Shown piece after piece: positions 6,186 through 48,727 of a DNA stretch of 64,000 nucleotides (position 1 is its first letter; the number at the start of each line of letters is the position of its first letter). Made by a program: the position numbers and the translations under genes. Source of the stretch: Sulfuricurvum sp. (GTDB lineage Bacteria; Campylobacterota; Campylobacteria; Campylobacterales; Sulfurimonadaceae). Below the pieces are notes generated by a model. The model had not been told where the DNA came from. It made no database searches and saw only the letters and a list, made by a program, of their open reading frames with translations. The DNA lies in the NCBI GenBank assembly GCA_030692765.1, contig JAUYUB010000008.1:1-64000 (forward strand), read 5' to 3'.

Positions 6186-6195
6186 TAATGATAAT

Positions 6196-6211: not shown

Positions 6212-6249
6212 GTTTCATCTTCTATGTGCAGAGCTTCTCTTCAGATAAA

Positions 6250-6268: not shown

Positions 6269-6375
6269 GTGGTTTATCTCTCTGACCGTATGCTTATGAG
6301 TGTTTTCAAAATAGATGAAAATAGCATTGAGTATAAATGAAGAGAGTAGCGCCTATTTGAGATTAGGAGTTAATA

Positions 6376-7332: not shown

Positions 7333-7335
7333 CAA

Positions 7336-8727: not shown

Positions 8728-8746
8728 ATTAAACAAGGAGAAATTA

Positions 8747-9916: not shown

Positions 9917-9919
9917 TTT

Positions 9920-14129: not shown

Positions 14130-14130
14130 A

Positions 14131-15333: not shown

Positions 15334-15348
15334 TTTAATCTCCTATTC

Positions 15349-15918: not shown

Positions 15919-15975
15919 AAGATCTCCTAATGTTTTTTTTACAGTATAAGTTTGAATTAAATATAATTTATAGAC

Positions 15976-16200: not shown

Positions 16201-16245
16201 TTCTGCTCCATATGATGACTTAAACATAGATATTTGACATGACAA

Positions 16246-26654: not shown

Positions 26655-26796
26655 GGAATCTCCTACCATTAATTATGAGAGTATAGCTAAATTATTTAAA
26701 TCCTTAAGCCGCTCTATGCATAGGTTTAGTAGGAATAAAACGATACATTTATGTAAATTACATCCATTTAATATTGATTTTTCATCTGCACGTAAT

Positions 26797-27217: not shown

Positions 27218-27931
27218 ATGACGAAACGAGTAACGCAAGGTCCGGCAGGTTATATGCCACAGTCGGCACCGTCCATGGGAGTCGAGCTTGCACCGAAAGG
27301 TCAAGGTTTGCTTTATGGAAATGTTGTAACTGAAGAAGAAGCGATGAGAGATGCTGCAATAGCATTACTTACAATGGCTAATCCAACAATCTTCCCTGGT
27401 CCACAAATCCTTTGGGATTGGAAAGATGATGTTGCAGAAAAAGCTGCTGCTCTATTAGAACTTGCATCTGAGATTCCAAACTGTAAAATCATTCCGATGC
27501 CTGATTATCGTCCTAAATATCCAAAAATTGATGTTAAGGCTGAGATCAACCCTAACCATCCAAACCTTACAATCTTAGATAACAAAATCAAAGCTTGTAT
27601 TTTTATCGGTGTACACTGTCACTACGCAAATCTTACTCTTAGAATGATCCGTGCTGGTACTGATTGTTATACAATCGCACTATGTGCTTATATGGGACAC
27701 GAAGAAGCTATGGCTTCTATCAATGACCTACATGCTAGCGATCTTAGAAAATTCAAAGAGATCATTATTGAAGAAAGAAAGAAATTAGGAATTGAGTGGA
27801 CTACTACTGAACCACCTAGAAACCCATCTTTACCAAAAGAAGACAACAGTACGTTGTCACCAGTTGATTACGGTGAGTACAGAAGTCTCATCATGACTAA
27901 AAAAGGTGAGCACGTTACTGACGTTGAGTAA
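27218..27931 (+). CDS. Epsilon-type subunit of five-subunit 2-oxoacid:ferredoxin oxidoreductase (cluster 2)
   Basis: The 237-residue protein is the paralogue of 15349-15918, sharing 'TIFPGPQI', 'PDYRPKYPKI', 'EINPNHPNLTI' and 'IFIGVHCHYANL'. It adds a C-terminal tail of about 40 residues rich in Pro and charged residues that the other copy lacks. AAGGAGTC precedes the ATG. It is the first gene of the second cluster, in the order E, alpha, beta, gamma, delta. The biochemical role of this subunit is not settled even in Hydrogenobacter. Confidence 0.8.
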   Translation: MTKRVTQGPAGYMPQSAPSMGVELAPKGQGLLYGNVVTEEEAMRDAAIALLTMANPTIFPGPQILWDWKDDVAEKAAALLELASEIPNCKIIPMPDYRPKYPKIDVKAEINPNHPNLTILDNKIKACIFIGVHCHYANLTLRMIRAGTDCYTIALCAYMGHEEAMASINDLHASDLRKFKEIIIEERKKLGIEWTTTEPPRNPSLPKEDNSTLSPVDYGEYRSLIMTKKGEHVTDVE

Positions 27932-28014
27932 TTTTAACGTTAGAGTTAATGATAGACTAGAATTTGTAAAGACACTAGCAGACATAAGCTGCAGTTGAAT
28001 AAAGGAGATAGTAA

Positions 28015-29196
28015 ATGAGTTACGAAAGACCAAAATTAGTAAAAACATTTGTAGATATTAACTACATGTTAAAAGAGGCTCCACGTAAGCAGCACTTTAT
28101 TACAGGTGCTCAAGCGATGGCAGAAGCTGTTAAGAGAGCAAACGTTGATATGGCGATTGCTTATCCAATTACGCCACAATCAGAAGTTATGCACCTTGTT
28201 GCTGATGCTTTTCACCAAGGGCACGTTAAAGAGTATTATAGAGCTGAAGAAGAGCTTGGTACAATGTCAGCAATCGCTGGTGCTTCAAGAGCGGGTGTCC
28301 GTTTGTTTACAGCAACATCAGGACCAGGACTTCTTAGAGGTCTAGAAGCAATCGTATCTTGGTCAGGGCACCGTGTTCCAGCGGTACTTGGTATCTTGAC
28401 TCGTGTTGTTAATGCACCGTTGTCAATTCAACCGGATAATATCGAAATGGCATACATGATGCATTGTGGTGCTGTTATGTTGCATGCTGAAAATCAGCAA
28501 GATACTTTTGATATGACATTGGCTGCATTTGCTATTGCAGAAAAAGTTGATGTTTATATCCCAGTAGCTGTTGCAACAGAAGGTTTCTTCGTAACACACG
28601 CTAAAGGTTATGTTAACATGACTTCAGATGAGTTAGCATTAACTCCATTTGATGCAATCGCTGCACCGGTTCCTGCTATGGATAATGAAACTCCACCAGC
28701 AAGAATTCAAAGAGATGCGCCGGTACAAAAGTCAAACTTCATGTCTTACTTGATTCATGCTGTATGGCAACAAGAAATCTGGGATTGTAATAAGCGTGCT
28801 ATGAAGTATGTTTATGAGTATCTTGGTGGACCGATCGAAGTTCAAAACCCTGAAGCTGATGTATTCGTTGTTGCTTCTGGTTGTGCTGCTGCACAAGCTC
28901 GTGAAGCTCATAGAACATCACGAGAGTTGGGCTTGAGTGTTGGTTTGATCAAAGTTAGAGCAATTAGACCATTCCCGGTTGACGAAATTAGAGCAACCGT
29001 TAAGAATGCTAAGGCACTTATCGTACCTGAGCATAACATTATTGGTTGGTTGGCTCAAGAAGTTAAAGCAGCTATCCCTAATGGCGGTATCGTTGTAGGT
29101 GGTCCAAGAGTATACGGTGGTATGACACTTCCTGTTGAGTTGATCATGAAAGAAATCCATACTGCTCTAGGTTTAGAGTTCAATCTAAAATTATAA
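28015..29196 (+). CDS. 2-oxoacid:ferredoxin oxidoreductase alpha subunit (cluster 2)
   Basis: The 393-residue protein has 'AYPITPQSEVMHL' near residue 54, 'AEEELGTMSAIAGASRAG' and 'TATSGPG', the pyrimidine-domain features of the family, and a C-terminal transketolase-like domain. The acid pair 'AEEELG' replaces 'GENEFG' of cluster 1, near the active site; this could reflect a different 2-oxoacid. AAGGAGA precedes the ATG. It is separated from E by 83 bp, the largest gap in the operon. Confidence 0.93.
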   Translation: MSYERPKLVKTFVDINYMLKEAPRKQHFITGAQAMAEAVKRANVDMAIAYPITPQSEVMHLVADAFHQGHVKEYYRAEEELGTMSAIAGASRAGVRLFTATSGPGLLRGLEAIVSWSGHRVPAVLGILTRVVNAPLSIQPDNIEMAYMMHCGAVMLHAENQQDTFDMTLAAFAIAEKVDVYIPVAVATEGFFVTHAKGYVNMTSDELALTPFDAIAAPVPAMDNETPPARIQRDAPVQKSNFMSYLIHAVWQQEIWDCNKRAMKYVYEYLGGPIEVQNPEADVFVVASGCAAAQAREAHRTSRELGLSVGLIKVRAIRPFPVDEIRATVKNAKALIVPEHNIIGWLAQEVKAAIPNGGIVVGGPRVYGGMTLPVELIMKEIHTALGLEFNLKL

Positions 29197-29209
29197 TAAA
29201 GGGGATAAA

Positions 29210-30118
29210 ATGAGTTTAAAATATGTAACTCCGGTAGCAATGTTTAAAAAATATTTACCAAAAGATTATGTGGAATTAGTTGACTTTGGTCCATTCGGAA
29301 AGACTCAAGATGAGGCTGGCCCAGGAAACATGGGACAGTTCAAAGAGTTGATGGAAGAGCATCCAATGTGTTCTGGTTGTTGGATGGCATATTACATCAG
29401 ATTGATTTTTGCTTCACTTCCATGCCCTGAAGAGACTGTAACATTGGGTACAGCTGGATGTGGTCGTTTGGCTATTTCTCAAGCGGCTGTTCCATTTATC
29501 TATGGTAACTACGGTGACCAAAATGCTATGGCATCTGGTTTGTCTCGTGCATTCCGTTTGCGTTTCCCTGATAAACAAAAAGACGTTATCACAATCGCTG
29601 GTGATGGCGGAACTATGGATATCGGTTTCTCTATGACTATGCACTCATGGATCCGTGGTGAAAGATTCACAACGATCATGCTTGACAACGAAGTTTATGG
29701 AAATACTGGTGGTCAAGAGTCAGGTATGTCTCCTAAGGGTGCTGTATTGAAAATGGCTCCAGGTGGTAAACAGTTTAACAAAATGCCTGCAACTGACTTA
29801 GCAAAAGCTGCTGGTTGTGTGTATATCGTTAGAATGTCACCTACAAACATCAAAAAAGCTGCAAAAATTATCCGTAGAGCAATCTTTGTTGCTAGAGAAG
29901 TTGGACCAACGTTTATTCATGCTTACACTTCATGTAACATTGAGTATTCAATTCCTACTGAAGAAGTATTTGCAGATGCAAAATTGAGAGAGAAAGATCG
30001 CTTCCAATTTGAAGAGTATATGACTGATGCAGCAAAAGAAGTTATCGATCGTATCGAAGCTGAAGAAAAAGCAGCACACAGAGCTAAAAAAGGTATCGTA
30101 GAAGAGGAGGTTAACTAA
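29210..30118 (+). CDS. 2-oxoacid:ferredoxin oxidoreductase beta (TPP-binding) subunit (cluster 2)
   Basis: The 302-residue catalytic subunit has the TPP motif 'GDGGTMDIG' followed by 'LDNEVYGNTGGQ', and cysteines in 'CSGC', 'TAGC' and 'TSC' for a [4Fe-4S] cluster. Compared with cluster 1 the 'CAGCPEAAALR' segment reads 'CSGCWMAYYIR', so the two enzymes are clearly different. One cluster is probably pyruvate synthase and the other 2-oxoglutarate synthase; I cannot say which from sequence alone. Confidence 0.92.
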   Translation: MSLKYVTPVAMFKKYLPKDYVELVDFGPFGKTQDEAGPGNMGQFKELMEEHPMCSGCWMAYYIRLIFASLPCPEETVTLGTAGCGRLAISQAAVPFIYGNYGDQNAMASGLSRAFRLRFPDKQKDVITIAGDGGTMDIGFSMTMHSWIRGERFTTIMLDNEVYGNTGGQESGMSPKGAVLKMAPGGKQFNKMPATDLAKAAGCVYIVRMSPTNIKKAAKIIRRAIFVAREVGPTFIHAYTSCNIEYSIPTEEVFADAKLREKDRFQFEEYMTDAAKEVIDRIEAEEKAAHRAKKGIVEEEVN

Positions 30119-30825
30119 TGGAAGCTAGAAAAAGATATAACATTCGTATTTCTGGGCTAGGTGGGCAAGGTGTTGTTACCACCGCTCACATTCTTGGTTC
30201 GACTATGGATAATGCTGGTAAATATGCATCATTGGTACCGTTTTTCGGTTCTGAAAAGCGTATGGCACCGGTTGAAGCTTATGTAAGAGCTTCATCTGAG
30301 CCAATTTATGAAGTAGGGGAAGTTGTTTACCCTGATATTATCATGATCTATCACTCACAAGTTATTACTCATGGTAAATCATATACGATGCCATTTTATA
30401 CTGGTCTTAAACCAGACAGTCTTATCATCATCAATACAGACAGAAATGTACTTGAAGAAGATGATATTCAAGTTCTTAAAGACCTCAATGCTAAAGTTGT
30501 TCAATTCGATGCTACTGATTTGGCTGTTAAAGTTGCTGGTACTGAACTTGCGACAAACATGGCGATGATGGGTATGCTTCTTGGTCTTACTGAACTTGTA
30601 ACAACTGAAAATATTGAAAAAGCGGTTAAGGAAAGATTCTTGGGAACTTCATTCATTTCTTCTGGTGGTACAGCTGCACTTGACTCTGCTATCGAGAAGA
30701 AATTTAAGAAAAAAGAAGAATTACTTCAAAAGAATATGGATGTTATCAACAAAACTTTTGAGATGGCAAATTCTGTAGATCTTAGCGGCAGTGAATTAAT
30801 CGTTCAACTTGCACCAAATCTATAA
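30118..30825 (+). CDS. 2-oxoacid:ferredoxin oxidoreductase gamma subunit (cluster 2)
   Basis: The 235-residue gamma subunit has 'ISGLGGQGVVTTAHI' and 'VPFFGSEKRMAPVEAYVRA'. The ATG overlaps the beta stop (TAATG), exactly as in cluster 1, showing that the beta-gamma junction has been kept since the clusters duplicated. The C-terminal helical region ('AIEKKFKKKEELLQKN') is also shared. Confidence 0.93.
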   Translation: MEARKRYNIRISGLGGQGVVTTAHILGSTMDNAGKYASLVPFFGSEKRMAPVEAYVRASSEPIYEVGEVVYPDIIMIYHSQVITHGKSYTMPFYTGLKPDSLIIINTDRNVLEEDDIQVLKDLNAKVVQFDATDLAVKVAGTELATNMAMMGMLLGLTELVTTENIEKAVKERFLGTSFISSGGTAALDSAIEKKFKKKEELLQKNMDVINKTFEMANSVDLSGSELIVQLAPNL

Positions 30826-30840
30826 AGATAAAGGAATAAT

Positions 30841-31065
30841 ATGTATTATGTAGCAAAAGTAAATGCAGATATGTGTGCTGAGTACAAGTGTAATACTTGT
30901 ACTCTATATTGTCCAGAAGCTAACACGCTTATGTTCGATAAAGTTGGAAATACCTCATGGGTAGATGAAGACAGATGTAAAGGTTGTGCACTTTGTGTAT
31001 ACGTTTGTACTGACATGCTAAGCCGTAATTGTATTACGATGGAAATGGTTCACGGTAAAGAATAA
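30841..31065 (+). CDS. Ferredoxin-like delta subunit of 2-oxoacid:ferredoxin oxidoreductase (cluster 2)
   Basis: The 74-residue two-[4Fe-4S] protein is identical in all residues to the cluster 1 delta subunit, whereas alpha, beta, gamma and E differ widely. The first 61 codons carry 22 synonymous differences, while the last 16 codons and 7 nt past the stop are identical (a 49-nt run). An AAAGGAATA motif precedes the ATG. It is the last gene here but the first in cluster 1. Confidence 0.93.
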   Translation: MYYVAKVNADMCAEYKCNTCTLYCPEANTLMFDKVGNTSWVDEDRCKGCALCVYVCTDMLSRNCITMEMVHGKE

Positions 31066-31140: not shown

Positions 31141-31614
31141 TTATACTGAGTATTTTGGATTTTTTCCTACTGCTGATCTAACATCTTCATTCTCATCTTT
31201 ACTCAATTTATCCAATGTCTCAGTAGGTGTATTTGGATTCACTGCAACGGATGCTCGAATATTAGGATCTTCATCTGTACTAAATTTGTTTAATAGCCCA
31301 GCCGGTGTATTGGGGTTTCCACCAATCCAGTAGGCCATGGATTCATCGTTGCTCAATCTAAGCAAACCCTCCAGAGAGGTATTTAGATGTTCCGCAACAA
31401 ATTCTCTAACATACATACTCTCATCTTTACTTAGCTTATCCAATATTTCAGAGGATGTATTTATATTGGCAGCAACTCTCATACGAACGAATTGGCTTTC
31501 ATCACCACTGAGTTTATCTAAAGTTTCAAGAGATGTATTTGGATTTTGTGCAAGCATGGATCGAACATTTTCATCATTACTTGCAGCTAACGCTAGTTCT
31601 TCTGTATTTGTCAT
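31141..31614 (-). CDS. Leucine-rich repeat variant (LRV) protein
   Basis: The 157-residue protein is built of nearly six copies of a 24-residue unit with consensus 'DES..VR..VA.NPNTS.E.LDKLSK'. This is the LRV pattern of alternating helices forming a right-handed solenoid, known from a nif-linked Azotobacter protein. The N-terminal iron-sulfur cysteines of that protein are absent here; there are no cysteines at all. Such solenoids usually bind proteins. It is a single gene, convergent with cluster 2. Confidence 0.8.
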   Translation of the reverse strand: MTNTEELALAASNDENVRSMLAQNPNTSLETLDKLSGDESQFVRMRVAANINTSSEILDKLSKDESMYVREFVAEHLNTSLEGLLRLSNDESMAYWIGGNPNTPAGLLNKFSTDEDPNIRASVAVNPNTPTETLDKLSKDENEDVRSAVGKNPKYSV

Positions 31615-32523: not shown

Positions 32524-32829
32524 TTAGTCTGAACCATGTTCAAGTGAATCTATTTGTTCAATAAATCGTTCCAAGGTAAAGGTAATGAAATTTGCTAAAT
32601 CTTCAGCATCTTTTTGAAGATAGTTTTGTCTTAAAGGCATACGCTGCATCCATGGATGACCATCATCTTTCGCATAGGTGAACTGGATATAGGGACCCTC
32701 AAGCTCAATAGTTCCTTCCTTGATCGTTACTAAAACGCCAGGTATAAAATACTCAACGCTAACATCTGGATTGACTTCGGTATTGTCAATCAATTCTATG
32801 ACTGCTTGTAATTTTTCTTTTTCTAACAT
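32524..32829 (-). CDS. Small protein, single-unit paralogue of 25801-26223
   Basis: The 101-residue product begins 'MLEKEKLQAVIELIDNTEV', then 'NPDVSVEYFIPGV', 'YIQFTYAKD' and ends 'RFIEQIDSLEHGSD', matching the third repeat and C-terminal domain of 25801-26223. The ATG at 32829 follows AAGGAAAACGTT; an upstream in-frame ATG at 32901 adds an unlikely tail. The function is unknown. The pair sits on either side of oxidoreductase cluster 2. Confidence 0.65.
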   Translation of the reverse strand: MLEKEKLQAVIELIDNTEVNPDVSVEYFIPGVLVTIKEGTIELEGPYIQFTYAKDDGHPWMQRMPLRQNYLQKDAEDLANFITFTLERFIEQIDSLEHGSD

Positions 32830-33031
32830 AACGTTTTCCTTATAAATCGAGATATGACAATAGTATATCTTAATATATAAAATGCAGTTAAAACTGATCA
32901 AATAAAACCAAAAACAAATAATAAAACTATAACTTTAAGTATCATATTTAGTTGATCTAATATTAATTATTTAAAAACTTAGTTTTAGTCAATAATGCTA
33001 AAATACGCACATTGAAATTAAAAGGATTATT

Positions 33032-34288
33032 ATGAAAGTTACTGTAGAAAAAATAGATGATATAAACTTTATTATGAGTGGTTCAGTTGAGAACAGTGTA
33101 ATCGAAAGCAAAGTGGCACAATTTAGAGAGCAAGCTGCTAAAGAACCAAAAGATGATGAGTCTAAGGATGAAAAAATTGAGCAAGCTGCGGCGGCACAAG
33201 TATTTAAAGAATTTATCGATGCTGGATTAAAAGAAGCAAAAATCGAAGTAGAAAGTGTTCTCGGTCAGCCTGGACTAAAAAAGTACGAGCAACGAGATAA
33301 TAGCATCTATTTTGAAGTAGAGGTAGCGATCTCTCCGGAGATTAATGTAGATATCGATTATTCAGACATCATACCTACATACACACGACCAAAAGCGACA
33401 GCCGATGCAGTAGAAGCGAAACTTGCAGCATTTGCTCAGCAGCACGCCCCATTTACAAAGATTGAAACACCAAGAGCTATTGAAAATGGTGATGTCGCTG
33501 TTATCGATTTTACAGGTTTTATCGATGGTAAGACTTTTGAGGGGGGAAGTGCAGAAAAATTCAATCTTAAGGTCGGTTCTAACACATTTATTCCCGGTTT
33601 TGAAGAGCAGCTTATCGGTATGGAGTACAACGAAACAAAAGATGTTCATGTAAAGTTTCCTGATGATTATTCATCTGAAGATTTAGCAGGCAAGGAAACG
33701 AAGTTCGTAGTTAAACTTCACGAAATTCAAGAACAAAAAGCTGAAAAATTGGATGATGCCTTCGCGAAAAAAGTTTATGGAGATCAGACTGCAACACTTC
33801 AGAAGCTTAAAGATCAACTTTCAGAGCAGGTAACAGCTGAGGAATTGTCACAAATCTACATGAGAGAGCTTAAGCCAAAAATCGTAGAAGGGCTACTGTC
33901 TAAGTTTGACTTTACTTTGCCAAATAACATAGTCGAGCAAGAGATCGATGCAAAAGTTCGTGAAAAAACACGTTCGTTTAGTGAAGATCAGCATAAGTCA
34001 TATATGGAAGATAAGGGTAAATTCAAAGAACTAAGAGAGTCGGTTCGCCAAGAAGCAAGAGCAAGTATTAAAAAGTCCCTTATCGTTGAAGCATTAGCAA
34101 AAAAAGAAAATATTGTTGTGCATGATCAAGAAGTGATCGGTGCACTTGGCTATCAGGCTACGATGACCGGTCAAGACCCGCAACGATTGGTGCAATACTA
34201 CCAAGACAATAACCTAATGGTATCCGCAAAAATGGGATTGATGGAAGACAAGCTTTTTGGGGTGATGTTAGGATTCCATAAAGCATAA
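33032..34288 (+). CDS. Trigger factor-like chaperone / FKBP-type prolyl isomerase lacking the ribosome-docking signature
   Basis: The 418-residue protein has the three-part trigger factor layout: N-terminal domain (about 1-110), FKBP-type isomerase domain (about 145-240, 'GDVAVIDFTGFIDGKTFEGG', 'FIPGFEEQL') and a helical C-terminal chaperone domain. The ribosome-binding loop 'GFRxGKxP' that defines the family is missing: where it should lie the protein reads 'REQAAKEPKDDESKDEKIE'. The gene is not beside clpP or def, the usual place in this phylum. It may therefore be a second, ribosome-independent paralogue. AAAAGGATT precedes the ATG. Confidence 0.8.
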   Translation: MKVTVEKIDDINFIMSGSVENSVIESKVAQFREQAAKEPKDDESKDEKIEQAAAAQVFKEFIDAGLKEAKIEVESVLGQPGLKKYEQRDNSIYFEVEVAISPEINVDIDYSDIIPTYTRPKATADAVEAKLAAFAQQHAPFTKIETPRAIENGDVAVIDFTGFIDGKTFEGGSAEKFNLKVGSNTFIPGFEEQLIGMEYNETKDVHVKFPDDYSSEDLAGKETKFVVKLHEIQEQKAEKLDDAFAKKVYGDQTATLQKLKDQLSEQVTAEELSQIYMRELKPKIVEGLLSKFDFTLPNNIVEQEIDAKVREKTRSFSEDQHKSYMEDKGKFKELRESVRQEARASIKKSLIVEALAKKENIVVHDQEVIGALGYQATMTGQDPQRLVQYYQDNNLMVSAKMGLMEDKLFGVMLGFHKA

Positions 34289-35042: not shown

Positions 35043-35444
35043 ATGCTAATTAACCCACAAGAGATACAGCAAGTAGCAAATGAAGTAATGAATATGTTAC
35101 ATGAAGAAGAGATAGAGATTTTTAATGAGTTTTATGATGCAGTTGTGGCTAAAGATATAGAAAAAATTGATGAGCTTTTTAAAGTTGTTTTATTTGATGT
35201 CGAGGATCACTTCAAAACTGAAGAAGATATGATGGAACAAAACAAATATGGCTATTTTCAAGTCCACAAAAGTGATCATGATACCATGCGCGAAAAGCTC
35301 AATAAGTTTCATAAACGCTGGGAAATATTGAAAGGCCCTACAGAGCTGCAAGGTTTTTTAGAGAAGGATTTCAAGAGTTGGCTGAAGTTACATATCTCAA
35401 AATGGGATACTGAAATGGCTTTGCATCTCAGTGGTGGCAATTAA
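35043..35444 (+). CDS. Hemerythrin-like di-iron protein (1)
   Basis: The 133-residue all-helical protein carries the hemerythrin ligand pattern 'HFKTEEDMM', 'QVHKSDHD' and 'LKLHISKWDTEM'. The first helix has 'MLHEEEIEIF', with His in a position compatible with the remaining iron ligand. Bacteriohemerythrins bind oxygen at a di-iron centre and buffer or sense it in microaerobic cells. A GGAGAC site precedes the ATG. A second hemerythrin is encoded at 36350-36754. Confidence 0.85.
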   Translation: MLINPQEIQQVANEVMNMLHEEEIEIFNEFYDAVVAKDIEKIDELFKVVLFDVEDHFKTEEDMMEQNKYGYFQVHKSDHDTMREKLNKFHKRWEILKGPTELQGFLEKDFKSWLKLHISKWDTEMALHLSGGN

Positions 35445-36349: not shown

Positions 36350-36754
36350 TTAGTGTGGATTTTTTTCAGTAGCATACTTGGCCATTGCGGCATCCATGGT
36401 TTCAACATGGTGAATTCTCCATGGGGTAAGATTACCTTTACTGTAGGCATATATGGCTTTTGGCTCTCTCGTTCTTTCAAAATAGTTTACCAATGATCCG
36501 AGCTCTTGCAGGTGTCTGTCGTGCTCACTCTTGTGTGCTTGATAATCTGGATACTGTGCTTCAAGCATAATAGTTTCTTCGTTTGCGAAGTGTATGGTTG
36601 TATGTTCAAGCAGCTCACTAATCAACTTTGCGATTGTGTCTACGTCACTGTTGGCAATAGCCGTATCAAGTTTATCGATAATTATCATCTCTTCTAGATG
36701 GGTATCGTTCATGCTTGGTATTGCTACCATCGGCAGTTGCTCTTGTGTGGTCAT
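36350..36754 (-). CDS. Hemerythrin-like di-iron protein (2)
   Basis: The 134-residue protein has the full hemerythrin pattern: 'MNDTHLEEM' (first His), 'HTTIHFANEETIM' (His and Glu), 'QAHKSEHDRHL' (two His) and 'WRIHHVETMD' (His and Asp). It probably binds oxygen at a di-iron site. The gene starts 10 nt after the stop of the hybrid AAA gene on the same strand, so the two may be cotranscribed with the ClpS-like gene. Confidence 0.88.
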   Translation of the reverse strand: MTTQEQLPMVAIPSMNDTHLEEMIIIDKLDTAIANSDVDTIAKLISELLEHTTIHFANEETIMLEAQYPDYQAHKSEHDRHLQELGSLVNYFERTREPKAIYAYSKGNLTPWRIHHVETMDAAMAKYATEKNPH

Positions 36755-36763: not shown

Positions 36764-39367
36764 TTATTTATCTAAGATTTGATCTAATTCATCAGCATAT
36801 ATAATCTCTTTGTCAAAAAGTAATTTTGAGAGTTTTTCGATGGTGCTCCAATGTTTATTCACCAAGTCTACCGTGTTGTTTTGACCTTCTGTCATCCATT
36901 TTTCAAGGGCTGAATCGATTTTTTCATGATAATGCTCTGTCTCTTTGTTGGCTTTTGCATCCGTCACACCGTTGATGTTGATGTATCCGACTTCTTTGTC
37001 CATACCGTAATGTGCTATTGCCGTGTAGGCATCACGTGTGGCTTGCTGCAGGTCATTGGACGCACCTGTATCCAAACCGTCTATATCGCCGAAGAGTTTT
37101 ATTTGTGCTGTTCTTCCTGCTAAAGAGACACATATCTTATCTTTAAAATCTTTGACGGTCATATTGTCTTGTATATCATTATAATTTTCGGAAATGAAAT
37201 GTTCGTTATTGTCTTTTGGCGTTAAACTGACATGTTCTATATGTACATGAGGCATTAAGACTTTAGAGATAACTGCGCGTCCGGCCTGATAGATCGCAGT
37301 TTCCTGGAACATCTCTTCAGGAGACAGATAGGAGTGTCGCTCACCGTATTTGATATTATTGAGCTGATCGATCAATATCTCTTGGGTAATAGCGCTTAGA
37401 CCATGACGCAAACAATAATAGGAAGCTTCTTTGCCCAGTAGTTCAAGTTGTGCACCTGTAAATCCTGCTGTGTACATCAGCAGTTTGTTCATATCAAATT
37501 CACCGCTTGTGGGTTTCTTTTCTATGATGCTGTCCAAGAAGTATTTTCGTGCGTCTTTATCAAGATTGTTAATCTCGATATGAATCTCGACCCTTCCAGG
37601 TCTGATGATCGCACTGTCAATATTTTCTTTATAGTTGGTTGCAGCAATGACGAAGATATCTTCACCTTTTCTCGCTGAAAATCCATCCATTTCGGATAAA
37701 AGTTTGTTGATCGCAATTTCTTTTCCATTTGCATTACCGCGCTTCCCGATGGTATCTATCTCATCGATAAAGATAATTGCCGGTGCGTACTCTTTTGCTT
37801 TGGCAAAGATTTGCTTTGTCTTGTCAGGCTGTAGCAGTTCAAGTCCGGTTACGGAGATAAAAGGCAACTCTGCTTCTTTGGCAAAAGCTTTTGCAAGCAT
37901 TGTTTTCCCTGTACCCGGAGGTCCATATAAGAGCATACCTTTGGGTGGTTCAATGTCAAAGCTTTCCAAACGTTTTGGTTCTTTGAAAAAGTTAATAACC
38001 TCTCTGAGTCTTTGTTTGGCTTTATGATGACCTGCAATATCATCAAATGAGACTTTGGGTATATCAAAGACAATCCCGTCTTCGCTGAAGTCTTTGATTC
38101 TGATGACTTGCATGAATTTACAACTGACGACTTTGTAGGTTATGACCCCATTTTTATCAGTGATACTGTCTTTGATATCCAGGGTAGTGTTTTTTCTAAA
38201 AAGTTCTTTGACGAGGGTTTCGTCTTCAATGAGGGGATTGATTCGCTCGTTGATAAACTTCACACACTCTTTGGATAACGATACTTGTATTTGTTTAAAA
38301 TTACTAAGCAATTTGTCCGAGTTTTGGATGTATTCGGTAATGCGGTTAAAGAAAATGGTGCTTACTTTTTCTTTGAGACGCCTTGCGTCCAGCTCTGGAG
38401 CAAAGTTAAGCATTTGCAGTTTTAAAAAGTTATCGAAATTATTGGCCATCATAAATTCAATTTTATACTGCGCATAAAAATCGTCTTTATACGTCAGGAA
38501 TACTTGCTTGGTTATTTTTTCAAAGGCTTTGTACTCAAGTTTGTTAAATAAGACAATGTTTGCTTTTGAAAATCGAGAGACGAGTTCGGGTACTATGGCT
38601 TCTTGTGTACCACCGCTTCTACTGTCTCTCTTTTTTTCACGTTTAATCGCCTCGAGGATCATCGATTCGGCTTGGATGTAGTCTTTTTTGACAAGGTCTT
38701 TGAATCGGTGGTCCAGATAGAGCTCTTTACCTAAGCTTGTGGTGATGATGAACAAGGTCTCGGTAAAGTCTACCCAGTAGGTCGCATTTTCATCGCTGTA
38801 GATGATGTCCGGGTCTTCATTACACGGTTCGTCTGTAATTTTGTCCCAACCACATGCATCACGCATTCTACCACCCTCAAAGATGGAAAGAAGGTTGTTT
38901 TGAATGACATTGTCACATTTTTCAAAGGCATCGAGAACGATGACCGCTTTTGGATGTCTATGAACAAAGCCTGTCATTTGACCGACGCCAAATCCCTTCC
39001 AGCCGGTAGGATATCCATACAGCTCTCCACCATTTTGTTGGTGATATTGAGTCATATCAAATTTCATGATTTTGTATTTTGGCAAATGTTTGGACATGAG
39101 TTCAGCAAGAAAGGTCTTGCCCGTAGCAGGAGAGCCTAGAAAGAGATAGGTGGCCTTTGGCCCTTTTTCGTCTTTGATGGTATTTTTCATACTGTTGGCT
39201 ACAGTAGTAATCGCTTGATCTTGCCCAAACAGCTCTTTGGCGAGCTCTTCTTTGAATTTTCGTGCAAATTGTATGCTGTTTTGAGCCTCAATAAGTGAAG
39301 CATCAGCTTCTTGGTTCTTTTCGTGTTTTAATATCTGTGCTTTGACTAATTCTTCAGTACTTGTCAT
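36764..39367 (-). CDS. Hybrid AAA+ protein: ClpB-like AAA module fused to FtsH-like AAA and inactive M41 domain
   Basis: The 867-residue protein has two ATPase modules. The first (about residues 45-300) is Clp/HslU-like, with Walker A 'GSPATGKT' (78-85) and Walker B 'VIVLDAFE' (142-149). The second (about 445-640) is FtsH-like: 'FDDIAGHHKAK', 'YGPPGTGKT' near 481-489, 'IIFIDEID', and the arginine-finger region 'IIRPGRVEI'. The C-terminal part follows the M41 peptidase fold, but the zinc motif HEAGH reads 'YQAGR' (693-697), so both zinc histidines and the catalytic Glu are lost. The distal Asp region 'TGASNDLQQAT' remains. There is no membrane segment, unlike FtsH. I infer a soluble unfoldase with a dead protease ring. 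The ClpS-like gene lies 2 nt upstream. Confidence 0.88.
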   Translation of the reverse strand: MTSTEELVKAQILKHEKNQEADASLIEAQNSIQFARKFKEELAKELFGQDQAITTVANSMKNTIKDEKGPKATYLFLGSPATGKTFLAELMSKHLPKYKIMKFDMTQYHQQNGGELYGYPTGWKGFGVGQMTGFVHRHPKAVIVLDAFEKCDNVIQNNLLSIFEGGRMRDACGWDKITDEPCNEDPDIIYSDENATYWVDFTETLFIITTSLGKELYLDHRFKDLVKKDYIQAESMILEAIKREKKRDSRSGGTQEAIVPELVSRFSKANIVLFNKLEYKAFEKITKQVFLTYKDDFYAQYKIEFMMANNFDNFLKLQMLNFAPELDARRLKEKVSTIFFNRITEYIQNSDKLLSNFKQIQVSLSKECVKFINERINPLIEDETLVKELFRKNTTLDIKDSITDKNGVITYKVVSCKFMQVIRIKDFSEDGIVFDIPKVSFDDIAGHHKAKQRLREVINFFKEPKRLESFDIEPPKGMLLYGPPGTGKTMLAKAFAKEAELPFISVTGLELLQPDKTKQIFAKAKEYAPAIIFIDEIDTIGKRGNANGKEIAINKLLSEMDGFSARKGEDIFVIAATNYKENIDSAIIRPGRVEIHIEINNLDKDARKYFLDSIIEKKPTSGEFDMNKLLMYTAGFTGAQLELLGKEASYYCLRHGLSAITQEILIDQLNNIKYGERHSYLSPEEMFQETAIYQAGRAVISKVLMPHVHIEHVSLTPKDNNEHFISENYNDIQDNMTVKDFKDKICVSLAGRTAQIKLFGDIDGLDTGASNDLQQATRDAYTAIAHYGMDKEVGYININGVTDAKANKETEHYHEKIDSALEKWMTEGQNNTVDLVNKHWSTIEKLSKLLFDKEIIYADELDQILDK

Positions 39368-39369
39368 AA

Positions 39370-39672
39370 TTAAACTTCCTCAATCAAAAACCACAGAGAA
39401 AGGCCTTCTTTTTTAGCTTGATCTTCGACTATCTGTGCTTTGCTCTCTGCTATTTCAAACATGTACGCACCGCAAATTCCTTCGCCATCTGTAAGTATGT
39501 CATTTGTAATAGCTTCTGCTGTTTCTCGGCTTTTATGAAAGACTTCCATGAGGATTCTAATGCTGAATTCCCAAGAAATATACTTATCATAATGCATAGA
39601 GACGAGATACAGTTTTGGTTTACCTAATTGTGGGAAAAAAGTAGTTCTATGGGTTCTGACTGTGACTGCCAT
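39370..39672 (-). CDS. ClpS-like adaptor with degenerate N-degron pocket
   Basis: The 100-residue protein aligns with ClpS along 'KLYLVSMHYDKYISWEF', 'IRILMEVFHKSRETA', 'GICGAYMFEIAESKA' and the C-terminal 'LIEE'. ClpS delivers N-end-rule substrates to ClpA. Here the pocket residues are changed: 'NDDYTPMEF' reads 'YDKYISWEF' and the conserved His before 'G.A.CG' is gone ('LTDGEGICG'), so substrate choice must differ. Its stop lies 2 nt before the start of the hybrid AAA gene, which makes it a likely dedicated adaptor for that protein. Confidence 0.78.
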   Translation of the reverse strand: MAVTVRTHRTTFFPQLGKPKLYLVSMHYDKYISWEFSIRILMEVFHKSRETAEAITNDILTDGEGICGAYMFEIAESKAQIVEDQAKKEGLSLWFLIEEV

Positions 39673-39769: not shown

Positions 39770-41269
39770 ATGTTAAATTACTCTGCTAACGCTATTTGCG
39801 ATTTAGAACAACGTGTGTATCATCCTGCTATGACTCTAAAAAACCTATCATTTCAAACTCCGTATCTTACGCTGGATAGCGAATTTTACGATTTAACCCA
39901 GCCCACGCCACTGGATGAACCTTATCTGATAAGTTTTAGTCCTGATGCTGCCAAACTAATCGACCTTGACAGTAATAGCGGTGATGATCCTGATTTTGTT
40001 TCATTGCTTAATGGTACTCTCATAGCCGATGGCTCATCTACATACGCCATGTGCTATGCCGGACATCAGTTTGGTAATTATAATCATTGGCTCGGAGATG
40101 GAAGAACCCTCAATCTGGGACGCGTTAATGGCTGGAACCTGCAGTTAAAAGGTAGCGGAGAAACACTCTACTCGCGTATGGCAGATGGACGGGCGGCTGT
40201 GCGTTCCTCTATCCGTGAGTATCTGATGAGTGAATCGATGCACCATTTGGGCATACCAACAACACGAGCATTAGGCATCATCGGATCAAAGACAAAGATT
40301 GTTCGTAATCGTATGGAGCAAGCGGCTATTGTTATGCGTATGTCAACCAGCTGGGTTCGTTTTGGTACTTTTGAATACTTCTATTATTCGGGTAAACATG
40401 ATAAGCTTGAGATGCTTGCCCAATACGTCATTGGCGAATCGTATCCTCATTTGGTAGAAGATGAGGATCGCTTTTACAAAATGTTTTGCGAAGTAGTGGA
40501 GCGTACTGCACGATTGATCGCGCAATGGCAAGCAATCGGATTTAATCATGGCGTGATGAATACCGATAACATGTCCATTGAAGGGCTTACTATTGATTAT
40601 GGACCTTTTGCGATGCTGGATGATTTTAGATACGGATATGTGTGCAACCATACGGATCGGGCAGGGCGATATGCTTATTCAGAACAGCCCAATATTTCCT
40701 ACTGGAATCTTACAATGCTCTCCAAGGCACTCACCCCTCTCATTGATAAAGAACGGATGCAAAAAAAGCTTGATGACTTTGGAGCGTTTATTTATCCAGA
40801 TGCCTATGTTGATGCGATACGTAAGAAATTGGGTCTGTCAATAAAGCTGGACGATGACATTGATTTGGTAACGGATCTAGTAGTAGCACTGCACGATGTC
40901 TATGTGGATCATACTCTTTTCTTTCGAACGCTTAGCCGTTATGACGGTGACAGATCACCCATGTATGATATTGTCATGGAGCCTGTGATACTGGATGCAT
41001 GGCTTATTCGATACGATGATCGTCTATCTCATGAAACACGTACGCAAGGTGAACGCCAAGAAGCGATGCTTAAGACCAATCCAAAGTATGTTTTAAAAAA
41101 TTATATGATTCAAGAAGCGATAGAATTGGCTGAAGGCGGTGACAATTCGATGGTAGAAACATTGTTAAATATTGCGCGACATCCATACGATGAATGGCCA
41201 GAATTTGAGCGTTATGCAGGAGATACACCAGAAGAGTGTAAAAACTGCGGATTATCCTGCTCATCATAA
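39770..41269 (+). CDS. selO: SelO/YdiU-family protein adenylyltransferase
   Basis: The protein (499 residues from ATG 39770, or 479 from ATG 39830) is a pseudokinase of the SelO family, which transfers AMP from ATP to Ser/Thr/Tyr of target proteins. Family marks are 'CYAGHQFGNY', 'LGDGRTLNLG', 'QLKGSGETLYSR', 'DGRAAVRSSIREYL', 'MNTDNMSI' and 'IDYGPFAMLDDF'. The C-terminus ends 'CGLSCSS', the cysteine replacing selenocysteine of animal SelO. Neither start has a clear ribosome-binding site; the family's usual N-terminus favours 39830. Confidence 0.92.
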   Translation: MLNYSANAICDLEQRVYHPAMTLKNLSFQTPYLTLDSEFYDLTQPTPLDEPYLISFSPDAAKLIDLDSNSGDDPDFVSLLNGTLIADGSSTYAMCYAGHQFGNYNHWLGDGRTLNLGRVNGWNLQLKGSGETLYSRMADGRAAVRSSIREYLMSESMHHLGIPTTRALGIIGSKTKIVRNRMEQAAIVMRMSTSWVRFGTFEYFYYSGKHDKLEMLAQYVIGESYPHLVEDEDRFYKMFCEVVERTARLIAQWQAIGFNHGVMNTDNMSIEGLTIDYGPFAMLDDFRYGYVCNHTDRAGRYAYSEQPNISYWNLTMLSKALTPLIDKERMQKKLDDFGAFIYPDAYVDAIRKKLGLSIKLDDDIDLVTDLVVALHDVYVDHTLFFRTLSRYDGDRSPMYDIVMEPVILDAWLIRYDDRLSHETRTQGERQEAMLKTNPKYVLKNYMIQEAIELAEGGDNSMVETLLNIARHPYDEWPEFERYAGDTPEECKNCGLSCSS

Positions 41270-44018: not shown

Positions 44019-45065
44019 TCAACTCAATTCAGTCTGTTCCAATTTTCCGATTATATCTTCACCTTTTAAGACGTCCTCAATCTCCTTACGCAGTTCCTCT
44101 TGATTGGGTAAATAGAGTTGATATTTTTGAACGAAGAGTTGGCTATTCATTCCGTATGTTGCATATTCGACCAGCAGTTCATCTTTGTCTTTGCTCAGGA
44201 TGATACCAATAGGAGGATTGTCACCCTCAATATTTTGTTCATTCGCAAAGTATCCCAAATACATATTCATCTGTCCGATATCATGGTGCTTGACTTCATT
44301 TATTTTTAGGTCGATCAAGACAAAGCATCTCAAAATCCTATGATAGAACACCAAATCTACTTTGTAGTGGGTATTGTTGAGGGTAACACGGTATTGCCGT
44401 CCGACAAACGTAAATCCTTTGCCGAGTTCCAGTAAAAAGCTTTGTAAATTATCGCACAACAAGCTTTCGAGTTGAGTTTCAGCGATATGATAAGGCTCAG
44501 GGATTTTCAAGAACTCAAAAATATAAGGGTCTTTCAAGATATCGGTAGGTTTCTCGATGATTTGACCATTTTTGGAGAGATCAAGAATCTCTTGTTTGTT
44601 TTTTCCCATACTCAAACGCAAAAACAACGCACTCTCTTTTTGTCGTTGCAGTTCTCGAACCGACCAATTTTCACTCACGGTTTGTTTCTCGTAAAACTCC
44701 CGTTCAAGCTCATTTTCAATCTTCAAAAGCTCCACGATATGTGACCAGCTTAATTGGTGCGACAGTGTCGCACATATTGGATACACGAGATAAAATTGGC
44801 GAAATCGGATAAGATTGCTACGACTAAAGCCTCTGCCGTGCTGTAATGTCAAGTCACGGCTGAGTTGTTCTAAAAGTCTCTTGCCGTAATCTGCTTTTTG
44901 CATTCCACCTTGCTCGAATTCGACGATGTATTGTCCGATTTCCCAATAGGTTTGAACCAATTCAACATTAACGGCATTGATCGCACGGACTCGTCCTAGT
45001 TCATAAGCTGAACTGATACTTCCTAATAACTGTTCATACTCTTGTGTGGTAGTAATATTGCTCAT
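44019..45065 (-). CDS. YhcG-type (DUF1016) PD-(D/E)XK nuclease
   Basis: The 348-residue protein has the DUF1016 N-terminal helical domain ('RAINAVNVELVQTYWEIGQ', 'YGKRLLEQLSRDL', 'GRGFSRSNLIRFRQFY') and a C-terminal PD-(D/E)XK nuclease domain with 'KVDLVFYHR', 'LIDLKI' and a following Gln. Such proteins are common in mobile and defence loci and are often encoded beside restriction enzymes. It begins 1 nt after the stop of the upstream unknown gene, in one minus-strand operon with the type IIG enzyme. Confidence 0.88.
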   Translation of the reverse strand: MSNITTTQEYEQLLGSISSAYELGRVRAINAVNVELVQTYWEIGQYIVEFEQGGMQKADYGKRLLEQLSRDLTLQHGRGFSRSNLIRFRQFYLVYPICATLSHQLSWSHIVELLKIENELEREFYEKQTVSENWSVRELQRQKESALFLRLSMGKNKQEILDLSKNGQIIEKPTDILKDPYIFEFLKIPEPYHIAETQLESLLCDNLQSFLLELGKGFTFVGRQYRVTLNNTHYKVDLVFYHRILRCFVLIDLKINEVKHHDIGQMNMYLGYFANEQNIEGDNPPIGIILSKDKDELLVEYATYGMNSQLFVQKYQLYLPNQEELRKEIEDVLKGEDIIGKLEQTELS

Positions 45066-45066
45066 T

Positions 45067-45657
45067 TTAATTCAGCCTGTCCTCGTGTTCTTCATTCTTA
45101 TGATGATCAAAATTTCCATTTTTTATAATTATCATTGGTGCCGCAATTGAAAAATTTCGTGTTGTGCCCAAAAATTTCAATAACATTTTGGCTTTAATAA
45201 CATATTGATTTGTAAAATTAGGTGCTAAGCTCAACAGTTGGTCATAACCGCTTGAAAAATAGACGTCATTAGTTGCTAATAGTAAATTTTTTCCACCATT
45301 AATTGGCGCGGCACTAAAAATGTATCTTGTAATATTATCTTTATTTGAACTTGCAGAAGAAACACCGAATAATCCCTCCATCCAAAATAAATCAGGCAAT
45401 TCCCGAATATTTGAATCACTTAATACTATTTCTTCAATTTTATTAAGTTGTTCGTGAAGTTGACGATACATTGCATGCGTATTAATAGGATATTCGAAAG
45501 TTTCTTTCAGTGATGCCCCTGCCTTGGCAATGAAATCAAAGCCTAATGATACATCTGTTGTTTTAGAATATTTTGTAGGCGCATCTTTAGCAAAAGTTTT
45601 TTCATAAGCCTCAACAATAAAAGCATTATCCAAATAAATCACATTACTTAATTCCAT
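45067..45657 (-). CDS. Unknown protein in the restriction operon
   Basis: The 196-residue product is not recognised. It has 'LSLGFDFIAKAGASLKETFEYP'-like beta/alpha character (residues about 36-58 and beyond) and a hydrophobic C-terminal strand 'FSIAAPMIIIKNG'. The ATG at 45657 lies inside the end of the type IIG gene (14-nt overlap), and the stop is 1 nt before the YhcG-type gene. Tight coupling implies it works with one or both, perhaps as a specificity or immunity factor; that is a guess. Confidence 0.6.
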   Translation of the reverse strand: MELSNVIYLDNAFIVEAYEKTFAKDAPTKYSKTTDVSLGFDFIAKAGASLKETFEYPINTHAMYRQLHEQLNKIEEIVLSDSNIRELPDLFWMEGLFGVSSASSNKDNITRYIFSAAPINGGKNLLLATNDVYFSSGYDQLLSLAPNFTNQYVIKAKMLLKFLGTTRNFSIAAPMIIIKNGNFDHHKNEEHEDRLN

Positions 45658-48600
45658 ATAAATCACCTACCATCTTATCTATCTCCCCATCAACTCTATC
45701 AACCTCTTTTTGCAATTCCATCATCTCATCATAGAGCTGTTTAATACTTCGAAATATCGAAATATCTTTCATATCGACTTTGAGTTTGGTGAGAGCCGAT
45801 TGAAGTTCATCAAAACTCATTTTTTCAGGTGCATCGAGCTTGGCAGGTATTTTGGCAACGCTCAATGCCGATGATAAATAATCTTTAAATTCATCTTGCA
45901 GATTTGAGAGTTTGGCAACAAGTTCGAGTTGAGCATCAACCAATTTTTCGATTTTTGTCCGTTCCTCATCTGAGATTGTCGCAGGTATAGGAATCTGTTC
46001 GAGGTATTTCCAAATGAGCTGATAGCCGTTTTGGATAGAGGTACAATAAGAAGATATTAAAAACCAACCAATTTTTGAGTTTAAAATCGCCAATAAAACT
46101 TTATCATCTTTCGGAAGCATCCACATTGCATTATTGCAATACGTTCCATTGGTATCATAAACAAAAGCAGGTTTAACTTGAAATACCTGATACATAATTT
46201 TTGGCTTTTCAAATTCTTCGTAATAGGCACACGCCCGAAGTTCCCACCAAAATTCCCCTTTGTCTGTTCGTTTTCGTCCCTTTTCTGCGAATGCCTCAAA
46301 CCATTTGGCAATAGCTGGATAGGTTTGCTTTAGCCACTCCCACGCTTCATTTTCCGCTGTAAAACCTGAACGCTGACGTGTAGAGCCTTTTGGAAATAAA
46401 ATCAGATACTTTTCCGCCTTGGGTAATTCATACCGTTTAACATCTCGTCCTGCCAAAAAGGGTTTAATGACTTCGGTACTTTTACTATCAGAACTAATAA
46501 GCTCATTTTTAGTAGCTTCATCAATCACAAATGCTTCATTTAGTCCCGTAAGAACACCTCGATATGCTTCACCACCTAAATACTCATGCAGCGTAATACT
46601 ATTTCGTTTCAGTTTTTCGAGAAGTTCACCGTTTTCACCACCCATCGAATAACTCTCTGCACTCAGTCCACTCATAGCAACCGTTTGAGCATTTTCAGTA
46701 ACAAATATCCCCAAATCTCCAAAATCAAGGCTTTTGAGTTCTAATGTTTTAAACGTCTCTTGTACTTCTCTTTTACTCATTGTAAGAATTAAAGGATATG
46801 TCGTTGCCTCTTCAAATACTGGAAGATCACCGAAGTCGATAATCTCCTCGATATTTTTATCCATCAAAAAAGTTCTTAATGGCTTGCCGTATCCTGCTCT
46901 CATCCATTTGTTTGGGAAAATATAAGAGAACTTTCCACCTTCACGAAGCAATGAATAGCCACGCTCGACGAAAAAGACGTACAAATCCGCCATGCCGTGA
47001 TAGGTAGCATAATTCGCCGCAAAATGATTTTTTGCTTCTTGTGCCAACATTTCCTGACGGACATACGGAGGGTTTCCAATAACAACATCGAAACCACCTT
47101 GTGCGAAAACTTCGGGAAATTCATCTTCCCATACAAAAGCATTTTCAGCAACGTTACAATCTGATATAAGACTATTTCCACATTTGATTTTAGCCCCTAG
47201 ATTGATAAGCTCTCGACCCTTATGAGCAGTCCTCAGCCATAAAGAGAGCCGTGCAATTTCGACCGCATCCTCATTTATATCCACACCGTAAAGATTGTGT
47301 TCAAGAATACTTTTTTCGATTTCGTATCCGATCATCAAATCTTCGTAAGGTAATAATAAATCCCGTATGAGAGTATGTTCACGGATGAGAAATTCTAACG
47401 CTTGGTTTAGAAATGCACCGCTTCCGCATGCAGGGTCAAGGATTTTGAGATGGGTGAGCCATTCTCGATAGTTTAACAATGTTTCTTTGTAGCTCTGCTC
47501 ACTCTTCGTGAGTTTGCGAGGATTGACAACCACCGTTTCAGGCTCAATTTTTAACGCTTCTTTTTTATCACTGCACAATTTACCGAGGGTGTTTTCAACG
47601 ATATAACGGGTGATATATTCAGGGGTATAAAACACCCCATCCTTTTTACGTTTGGATTTTTTCTTGTCAAATTCGGTATCGTTGATAGAAGCATTCATCT
47701 CTTCGAGGTCGGTCAAGCTCTGCTCAAAAATATGTCCTAAAATATTGACGCTGATCTCACTCTCAAAATCAAAATCTGAGAGTTTTTGCGCTTCCATATC
47801 GAGATAACTGTCATCGATTTTTAGGCTATCAAGCATCTCGTCGGTGGCGAACAATCCGCCGTTGTATTTGGGAATACCGAGTTTGTCATTTCCCGTGTTG
47901 ATAGCATTGAAATAGAGTTTGTAATAATCGTACATACTGCGATCACCGAAACCGTCCGCTGCATGGCGTGAGCGTATCTCTTTTACCGTATTGGTTTTTA
48001 ATAAACTTCGATCTTCGGCAAAGAGGATAAAGATAATACGGTCGCAGAGTTTTTGGGTGAGGCGTAACAGCAACGATCTGTCCAAATCATTGTTCTTGAT
48101 AATATTCTCAAAAAGATGTGATCTAAATTGGCTAAAGTCACGGTAAAGCTCTTTGGAAATATTTTGTTCTTTTTTAATTGAATCTTCTTTCAATTTTATA
48201 GGAAGATTATCTCGAATACTCTCAAAGCTTAGGAGTAAATGAAGGGTTTTAAAATCTTCATACGTGAGGCCAAATAGATTAAACTTTTCATACGCCGTTT
48301 TTTTGTCGATGTAAAAACGCAGTTCATTGAAGTTGGAGATAATAATGTATTTGGAATTGGAGTGAGAGGCGTGATAGTTAAAGGCTTGTGATTCTACCGC
48401 ATCAAGATTTTTGGTTTTTTGATCTTTTAACTCTACGATTCCGATAATCTCGCTGTTTACGTAAATAACCCCATCGGCTTTTTTGCTGTCGGTTTCGTTT
48501 TTCTTTTCACGTTCCAAGTTAAAATCATGAGGATTCGTACTGTCAAGCGTATAGCCTAGACAACTTTCAAAAATATCTTTTAAAAATCCATCTTGATATT

Positions 48601-48727
48601 TTTCTTCTTTAACGGTTTTAATAAAATCAATTTTGGTGAGATAGTTTTGGAAGTTAGCCCATCGAAGTGCAATAATGCTTTCGTCTTGTTTGATCGAATT
48701 TAAAACGGATTTTTGAAAAATTGACAA
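45644..48727 (-). CDS. Type IIG restriction-methylation enzyme (Eco57I-like)
   Basis: The 1027-residue protein combines endonuclease and adenine-N6 methylase in one chain. The N-terminal PD-(D/E)XK site is seen at about 82-100 ('ADGVIYVNSEIIGIVELKDQ'). The methylase has motif I 'LDPACGSGAFLNQAL' near 430 and the catalytic motif IV 'NPPY' near 553. The C-terminal part (about 700-1020) is the target-recognition region with 'NKWMRAGYGKPLR' before it and a coiled coil at the end. It cuts near its recognition site unless methylated. The gene sits inside the rnpB-linked island; there is no separate methylase gene. Confidence 0.92.
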   Translation of the reverse strand: MSIFQKSVLNSIKQDESIIALRWANFQNYLTKIDFIKTVKEEKYQDGFLKDIFESCLGYTLDSTNPHDFNLEREKKNETDSKKADGVIYVNSEIIGIVELKDQKTKNLDAVESQAFNYHASHSNSKYIIISNFNELRFYIDKKTAYEKFNLFGLTYEDFKTLHLLLSFESIRDNLPIKLKEDSIKKEQNISKELYRDFSQFRSHLFENIIKNNDLDRSLLLRLTQKLCDRIIFILFAEDRSLLKTNTVKEIRSRHAADGFGDRSMYDYYKLYFNAINTGNDKLGIPKYNGGLFATDEMLDSLKIDDSYLDMEAQKLSDFDFESEISVNILGHIFEQSLTDLEEMNASINDTEFDKKKSKRKKDGVFYTPEYITRYIVENTLGKLCSDKKEALKIEPETVVVNPRKLTKSEQSYKETLLNYREWLTHLKILDPACGSGAFLNQALEFLIREHTLIRDLLLPYEDLMIGYEIEKSILEHNLYGVDINEDAVEIARLSLWLRTAHKGRELINLGAKIKCGNSLISDCNVAENAFVWEDEFPEVFAQGGFDVVIGNPPYVRQEMLAQEAKNHFAANYATYHGMADLYVFFVERGYSLLREGGKFSYIFPNKWMRAGYGKPLRTFLMDKNIEEIIDFGDLPVFEEATTYPLILTMSKREVQETFKTLELKSLDFGDLGIFVTENAQTVAMSGLSAESYSMGGENGELLEKLKRNSITLHEYLGGEAYRGVLTGLNEAFVIDEATKNELISSDSKSTEVIKPFLAGRDVKRYELPKAEKYLILFPKGSTRQRSGFTAENEAWEWLKQTYPAIAKWFEAFAEKGRKRTDKGEFWWELRACAYYEEFEKPKIMYQVFQVKPAFVYDTNGTYCNNAMWMLPKDDKVLLAILNSKIGWFLISSYCTSIQNGYQLIWKYLEQIPIPATISDEERTKIEKLVDAQLELVAKLSNLQDEFKDYLSSALSVAKIPAKLDAPEKMSFDELQSALTKLKVDMKDISIFRSIKQLYDEMMELQKEVDRVDGEIDKMVGDLYGIK

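Follow-up and report, generated by a model that had tools for sequence, protein, structure and literature searches.

The described systems closest to the locus analysed here are FtsH (TIGR01241, peptidase family M41), the second AAA module of ClpA and ClpB, the double-ring ATPases p97/Cdc48, Rix7 and NVL, and ClpS, for which the Clp_N domain is the usual docking site. The plant FtsHi pseudo-proteases provide a precedent for a dead FtsH that is retained for its ATPase (PMC8197885), and additional trigger factors that lack the ribosome motif have been described from organisms other than those discussed below (PMC11559001, whose main text mentions neither Campylobacter nor sulfur bacteria). Here we describe a pair of minus-strand genes from Sulfuricurvum sp. 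(sulfur-oxidising Campylobacterota; Campylobacterales), located in a 64,000-nucleotide stretch of contig JAUYUB010000008.1 (assembly GCA_030692765.1) that we call the window. One gene encodes a protein joining a Clp-type AAA module, an FtsH-type AAA module and an M41-like domain (the fusion), and the other a ClpS-like paralogue. A literature search with narrow terms turned up no published account of such a fusion. The two genes and the parts of the fusion are arranged as follows:

36764-39367, minus strand: fusion of Clp-type AAA, FtsH-type AAA and pseudo-M41, soluble, 867 aa
39370-39672, minus strand: ClpS-like paralogue, 100 aa, with a PF02617 match, an altered N-degron pocket and retained Clp-N docking residues
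38147-39262, minus strand: first AAA module and lid of the fusion (aa 36-407), of the ClpB/ClpA second-module type
37328-38080, minus strand: second AAA module of the fusion (aa 430-680), of the FtsH/PAN type
36767-37327, minus strand: M41-like domain of the fusion (aa 681-867; Pfam M41), almost certainly catalytically dead
37277-37291, minus strand: degenerate HEXXH motif, YQAGR (aa 693-697), from motif reading

A sequence-only reading of this DNA had pointed to two coupled genes, and the open reading frames bear this out: the ClpS-like frame ends 2 nt before the downstream fusion frame (junction sequence GAGGAAGTTTAATTATG). The three-part architecture named in that reading is likewise upheld. 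Pfam places AAA_2 at aa 70-267 (78 bits), AAA at aa 478-600 (142 bits) and Peptidase_M41 at aa 688-864 (82.8 bits), and NCBIfam alignment relates module 1 to the second AAA module of ClpA/ClpB, and not to an unrelated AAA type, and module 2 to FtsH. In an AlphaFold2 model of the fusion (mean pLDDT 81, pTM 0.62), residues 31-407 align to NBD2 of ClpB (4fd2; Z 23.4, rmsd 3.4, 297 residues) and residues 430-678 to PAN/FtsH ATPases (Z about 24). Structure prediction of the C-terminal part had been proposed as a check, and both FtsH and the plant Ycf2-FtsHi motor (8xku_E) align with residues 430-867 of the model. No membrane segment was found in the fusion: its best 19-residue hydropathy is 0.89, and the FtsH of the same genome reaches 2.61. 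By this measure the fusion is a soluble protein, as had been claimed.

Each of these relatives differs from the fusion in some respect. The C-terminal half has, like FtsH, an FtsH-type AAA module with Walker A and B motifs and arginine fingers, an M41 domain and the Asp that is the third zinc ligand, but the fusion has no membrane anchor, HEXXH or FVG pore loop, carries an additional Clp-type AAA module at its N-terminus, and scores 305 bits against TIGR01241, below the 600-bit cut-off. With FtsHi it shares an intact ATPase in the FtsH-type module, a degenerate HEXXH, purifying selection and a fold match (8xku/8xqw; PMC8197885), whereas FtsHi sit in the chloroplast envelope as membrane proteins and the bacterial fusion is a soluble protein with a Clp-type ring. 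Module 1 resembles the second AAA module of ClpB/ClpA in sequence, fold and aromatic pore loop; unlike ClpB/ClpA, the fusion has a single Clp module, no N-domain, and Ala or Ser in place of the Walker B Glu. Finally, an alignment to p97/Cdc48, Rix7 and NVL, which have two stacked AAA rings, spans both modules of the fusion (Z about 23.8, rmsd 6-13), but its first ring is of Clp descent and its C-terminus is derived from M41.

The residues Y693-Q-A-G-R697 occupy the HEXXH position of the M41 domain, where the sequence-only reading had already seen YQAGR in place of HEAGH. Both zinc-binding His and the catalytic Glu are replaced, and the third-ligand Asp (D772) is retained. With both His and the Glu lost, conventional zinc binding by this domain is not possible, and we regard it as a dead protease with very little reservation. 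Module 1 has an intact Walker A (GSPATGKT) and an aromatic Clp-type pore loop (GWKG, W123), and its Walker B reads D146-A147 instead of DE, the catalytic Glu being gone; judged from these motifs, it probably binds ATP without hydrolysing it. Module 2 retains Walker A (GPPGTGKT), Walker B (FIDEID) and the arginine fingers R589/R592, and lacks the FVG pore loop of FtsH, reading LQPDK where the genome's own FtsH has MFVGVG. We consider it likely that the fusion is an ATP-driven remodeller. The earlier proposal of a soluble unfoldase or disaggregase has to be qualified for module 1.

A wider search showed that the architecture is not unique to the window. Among 399 Campylobacterales genomes, 62 match the fusion family (some of them over the FtsH-like half only), in 18 of 87 genera, and Alteromonas and Neiella (Alteromonadales; Alteromonadaceae) encode the same fusion with HEAGH. 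HEXXH is retained in most of the full-length fusions checked. In a maximum-likelihood tree of 48 family sequences, the fusions with a lost motif form a monophyletic dead clade (100/100) of 20 sequences from Sulfuricurvum, Sulfurimonas and Sulfurovum, nested among HEAGH-intact fusions of other Campylobacterota and Alteromonadales; the fusion probably descends from an active Clp-FtsH fusion protease. The first zinc His is replaced (by Y, K or R) in every member of the dead clade and the second is lost in several of its branches, and the relatives display a series of motifs, with HEAGH, KEAAH/REAAH on one branch, and YEAGH, YEAGR and YQAGR on the other. Within the clade, pairwise dN/dS is 0.01-0.09 in every domain where it is measurable, including both AAA modules and the dead M41, and the fusion is under strong purifying selection. 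The clade-wide loss of the motif together with the low dN/dS rules out a sequencing error, chance or a pseudogene as the source of YQAGR. Since the fusion was found in 2 of 25 genomes of the window's genus, and since genera are intermixed within the dead-clade tree, its distribution points to horizontal spread across Sulfuricurvum, Sulfurimonas and Sulfurovum.

Other parts of the family show features of their own. Clade B (L046-L064; for example L049-L053, L064 and kin) retains HEAGH, and several of its members have degraded Walker A/B motifs in both AAA modules; it seems, from these motifs, to show the reciprocal decay, with the protease motif kept and the ATPase motifs lost. Some HEAGH-intact fusions (L043, L045, L089 and L091; one in Campylobacter concisus, others elsewhere in the Campylobacterales) adjoin large genes of DUF4062/STAND type or TIR-like genes, which may point to a role in defence. 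For the window fusion, antiphage defence was set aside, its islet containing no DUF4062/STAND or TIR-like genes. An origin from phages or plasmids was rejected: among the tblastn records listed, FtsH and ClpK appeared only as separate genes, or FtsH without ClpK, at <35% identity, and IMG/VR yielded only weak matches to module 1.

A dead fusion could still support proteolysis if it formed mixed hexamers with an active subunit, or if it fed a separate peptidase, and the single-cell genome SAG-AH-194-C21, which encodes a dead fusion (L077) alongside an active one (L088), would allow for the former. The window genome, however, has no second fusion, and its two other M41 matches are a canonical membrane FtsH of 658 aa and a membrane protein of 555 aa. 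As for a separate peptidase, action with another protease had been suggested from the sequence, and the [IVL]G[FL] tripeptide of the ClpP-docking loop was not found in the fusion, by a weak pattern that in the genome's own ClpA matches only the pore loop. Because this loop was not found, a partnership with ClpP is disfavoured, within the limits of that pattern. We regard both variants as very improbable. The 555-aa FtsH-like frame (L208, near position 120891 of contig C7 of G000, the window genome) has membrane segments and YQAGK at the HEXXH position, and by this motif it also looks protease-dead. Frames of 553-567 aa that match the FtsH-like half of the fusion occur in G010, G131, G219, G270 and G395.

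The ClpS-like protein matches PF02617 with 61.5 bits (cut-off 23), and its predicted structure is a ClpS fold (3g19; rmsd 1.5 over 84 columns, 37% identity) that also matches chains of the ClpA-N complex 1r6o. The earlier observation of an altered N-degron pocket is confirmed: N34, D36, M40 and H66 are replaced by Y, K, W and L, respectively, and among N34, D35, M40 and H66 only D35 is retained. W40 and the loss of H66 are common to all seven copies found, N34 being retained only in L069 and D35 being lost in L068. Residues E79 and K84 (E. coli numbering), which we take to be the contacts with the ClpA N-domain, are retained in every copy. The window protein has the fold and docking residues of ClpS, including the A. 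tumefaciens ClpS2 paralogue, but lacks N34, M40 and H66, and its neighbour, the fusion, has no Clp_N. That it might be the conventional ClpS of a distant ClpA was rejected, given that a second ClpS of the genome, with a full canonical N-degron pocket, directly precedes ClpA on contig C23; the two ClpS genes are distinct, and the objection of this kind that the sequence-only reading foresaw does not hold.

The retained E79 and K84 and the match to 1r6o, together with a genomic ClpA that carries Clp_N, would also suit a ClpS-like protein that partners the ordinary ClpA and inhibits or redirects ClpAP, its place beside the fusion then reflecting shared regulation. We find this unlikely in view of the 2-nt coupling in Sulfuricurvum and of the repeated co-location with the fusion. 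Gene context leaves it evenly poised whether the fusion works with the ClpS-like protein. The idea of a private adaptor is too strong: the search for fusion and neighbour, proposed along with it, placed the ClpS-like gene in the vicinity of the fusion at 7 of the 21 dead-fusion loci, with varied distances and on either strand. A seemingly perfect order-wide co-occurrence of ClpS-like proteins (six genomes above 100 bits) was dropped from the analysis because the inspected copy of the genus that supplies four of them has N34/D35/H66.

The pair sits in a reverse tricarboxylic acid (TCA) cycle island of the window, and this setting of carbon fixation and oxygen is new relative to the sequence-only reading. 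Sequences resembling isocitrate dehydrogenase, malate dehydrogenase, fumarase and succinyl-CoA ligase (named by eye) lie at 3972-10795. The remaining features of the island are:

12559-16245, minus strand: five-subunit 2-oxoacid:ferredoxin oxidoreductase, operon 1
18375-23583, plus strand: DabB/DabA-type inorganic-carbon uptake genes (PF10070, Proton_antipo_M)
26259-26669, minus strand: truncated globin, a recurrent neighbour (PF01152 and clustering)
27218-31065, plus strand: five-subunit 2-oxoacid:ferredoxin oxidoreductase, operon 2 (subunits of 237, 393, 302, 235 and 74 aa)
31141-31614, minus strand: leucine-rich repeat variant (LRV) protein, a recurrent neighbour
33032-34288, plus strand: second trigger factor, Tig2, without the GFRxGKxP ribosome-binding signature
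35043-35444, plus strand: second hemerythrin (PF01814)
36350-36754, minus strand: hemerythrin directly downstream of the fusion, recurrent (PF01814)

Every fusion-adjacent copy of Tig2 examined is without GFRxGKxP, and the genome's other trigger factor has the signature. Tig2 is like the extra trigger factors already described (PMC11559001) in lacking GFRxGxxP while a canonical copy is present, and unlike them in tracking the five-subunit oxidoreductase. Over the 21 dead-fusion loci, the neighbours include hemerythrin (11 loci), truncated globin (10), Tig2 (10), the ClpS-like gene and LRV (7 each), with order and strand shuffled. The five-subunit operon is present in four of these loci, and dabA lies near the fusion in five (L069, L073, L079, L083 and L085). 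At L069, which is Sulfurovum sp. AR, a dead fusion, a ClpS-like gene and Tig2 stand beside the five-subunit operon. Tig2 comes after the operon there and in L073 and L223, and the contig of L221 holds only the gamma subunit of the enzyme, with Tig2.

The alpha subunit of the five-subunit enzyme was found in exactly five of the 399 genomes (G000, G270, G131, G219 and G395), belonging to three families and five genera. These five genomes also give the top five Tig2 scores, all without GFRxG, and the next trigger-factor match, in G359, carries GFRKGKVP. This coincidence has a chance of about 1e-11; that all three dead fusions of the sample fall within the genomes with the five-subunit enzyme has a chance of about 1e-6, both figures being uncorrected for kinship, which would weaken them. 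Further, the fusion and the oxidoreductase are on different contigs in G270 and G395, which argues against mere linkage between them.

The five-subunit enzymes OOR and POR are held to be O2-tolerant and have been reported in Sulfurimonas pluma; five-subunit OOR enables Hydrogenobacter to fix carbon at high oxygen (PMC10066037). The study of Sulfurimonas pluma, with a synteny figure that covers this organism and Sulfurovum sp. AR, credits enzymes, respiration and hemerythrins for a reverse TCA cycle in oxic water, and its main text mentions neither ClpS nor chaperones (PMC10066037). In C. jejuni, hemerythrins shield Por and Oor from O2 (PMC4257069). We propose that the fusion would be a soluble double-ring AAA+ remodeller, that is, an unfoldase that releases its substrate. 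Ring 2 would hydrolyse ATP and power the cycle, ring 1 would grip the substrate in its ATP-held state, and the dead M41 ring may have been kept for its structure, forming a scaffold or a chamber, with plant FtsHi as the parallel. The ClpS-like protein would no longer recognise N-degrons and would serve as a dedicated modulator, or as an adaptor for substrates. Along with Tig2, the hemerythrins and the globins, the two proteins would save oxygen-exposed reverse-TCA enzymes from destruction by keeping them folded or fit for re-use, and the most likely clients would be the five-subunit 2-oxoacid:ferredoxin oxidoreductases. Gene context makes the tie between the fusion and oxygen-tolerant carbon fixation a tentative one, somewhat less probable than its opposite. 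Taken as a whole, a soluble ATP-driven remodeller with an altered ClpS, serving oxygen-exposed carbon-fixation enzymes, is a proposal we hold to be very nearly balanced, falling just short of probable.

Some of the same evidence would suit a general stress disaggregase that pulls proteins from aggregates and passes them to folding chaperones, like the stand-alone ClpG/ClpK: module 1 is ClpB/ClpA-like, Tig2 is a chaperone, and the horizontal spread over Sulfuricurvum, Sulfurimonas and Sulfurovum would allow the link to carbon fixation to be explained by co-transfer of the island. Membership in the tLST group (ClpG/ClpK) was nonetheless rejected, with NCBIfam scores of 68 and 64 bits lying far under the cut-offs of 1900. 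Further, the Clp N-domain was not found in the fusion, module 1 is without its catalytic Glu, and all three sampled dead-fusion genomes encode the five-subunit enzyme, including those in which the genes are not together. We therefore consider a general disaggregase rather unlikely.

Several observations weigh against a remodeller that acts with the ClpS-like protein in carbon fixation. Clp_N, the usual docking site of ClpS, has no Pfam match in the fusion, and more than half of the dead-fusion loci have no ClpS-like gene. A pocket-degenerate ClpS was seen in only two of the 399 genomes, G000 and G219, the latter without a dead fusion. Two genomes, G131 and G219, combine the five-subunit enzyme with Tig2 but have no dead fusion. 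The dead-fusion loci L074-L078 and L080 show little of the islet, and the proximity of the genes may in part reflect co-transfer of one island.

Additional features were observed in the window and at related loci. The 74-aa ferredoxin subunits of the two five-subunit operons (15976-16245 and 30841-31065) are identical as proteins, and 203/225 identical in DNA, which suggests gene conversion or very strong constraint. A small protein without a Pfam match (32524-32901) recurs near the fusion, often in two tandem copies (L071, L073, L082-L086 and L222). The gene for SelO, a protein adenylyltransferase (39770-41269), is oriented divergently to the ClpS-like gene and is found again in L067 and L068. 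In six loci (L068-L073), the dead fusion is directly preceded by a gene for a NikA-like ribbon-helix-helix protein of about 125 aa. The window also contains a YhcG-type nuclease and an Eco57I-type restriction-modification protein, at 44022-48727.

The dead clade would represent a bacterial route from a protease to a pure remodeller, in which intact relatives and intermediate motifs can be directly compared. In the window, the dead fusion stands beside two proteostasis paralogues without their canonical recognition features, the N-degron pocket of ClpS and the ribosome motif of trigger factor. The genome-level tie to the five-subunit oxidoreductases offers a testable idea on how the oxygen-sensitive reverse TCA cycle could operate in oxic water. 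It is a doubtful, though specific, suggestion that the fusion, the pocket-altered ClpS and the ribosome-free trigger factor form a dedicated remodelling system acting on the five-subunit oxidoreductases of this cycle; if true, such a system would be comparable in role to what the Rubisco activases are for the Calvin cycle.

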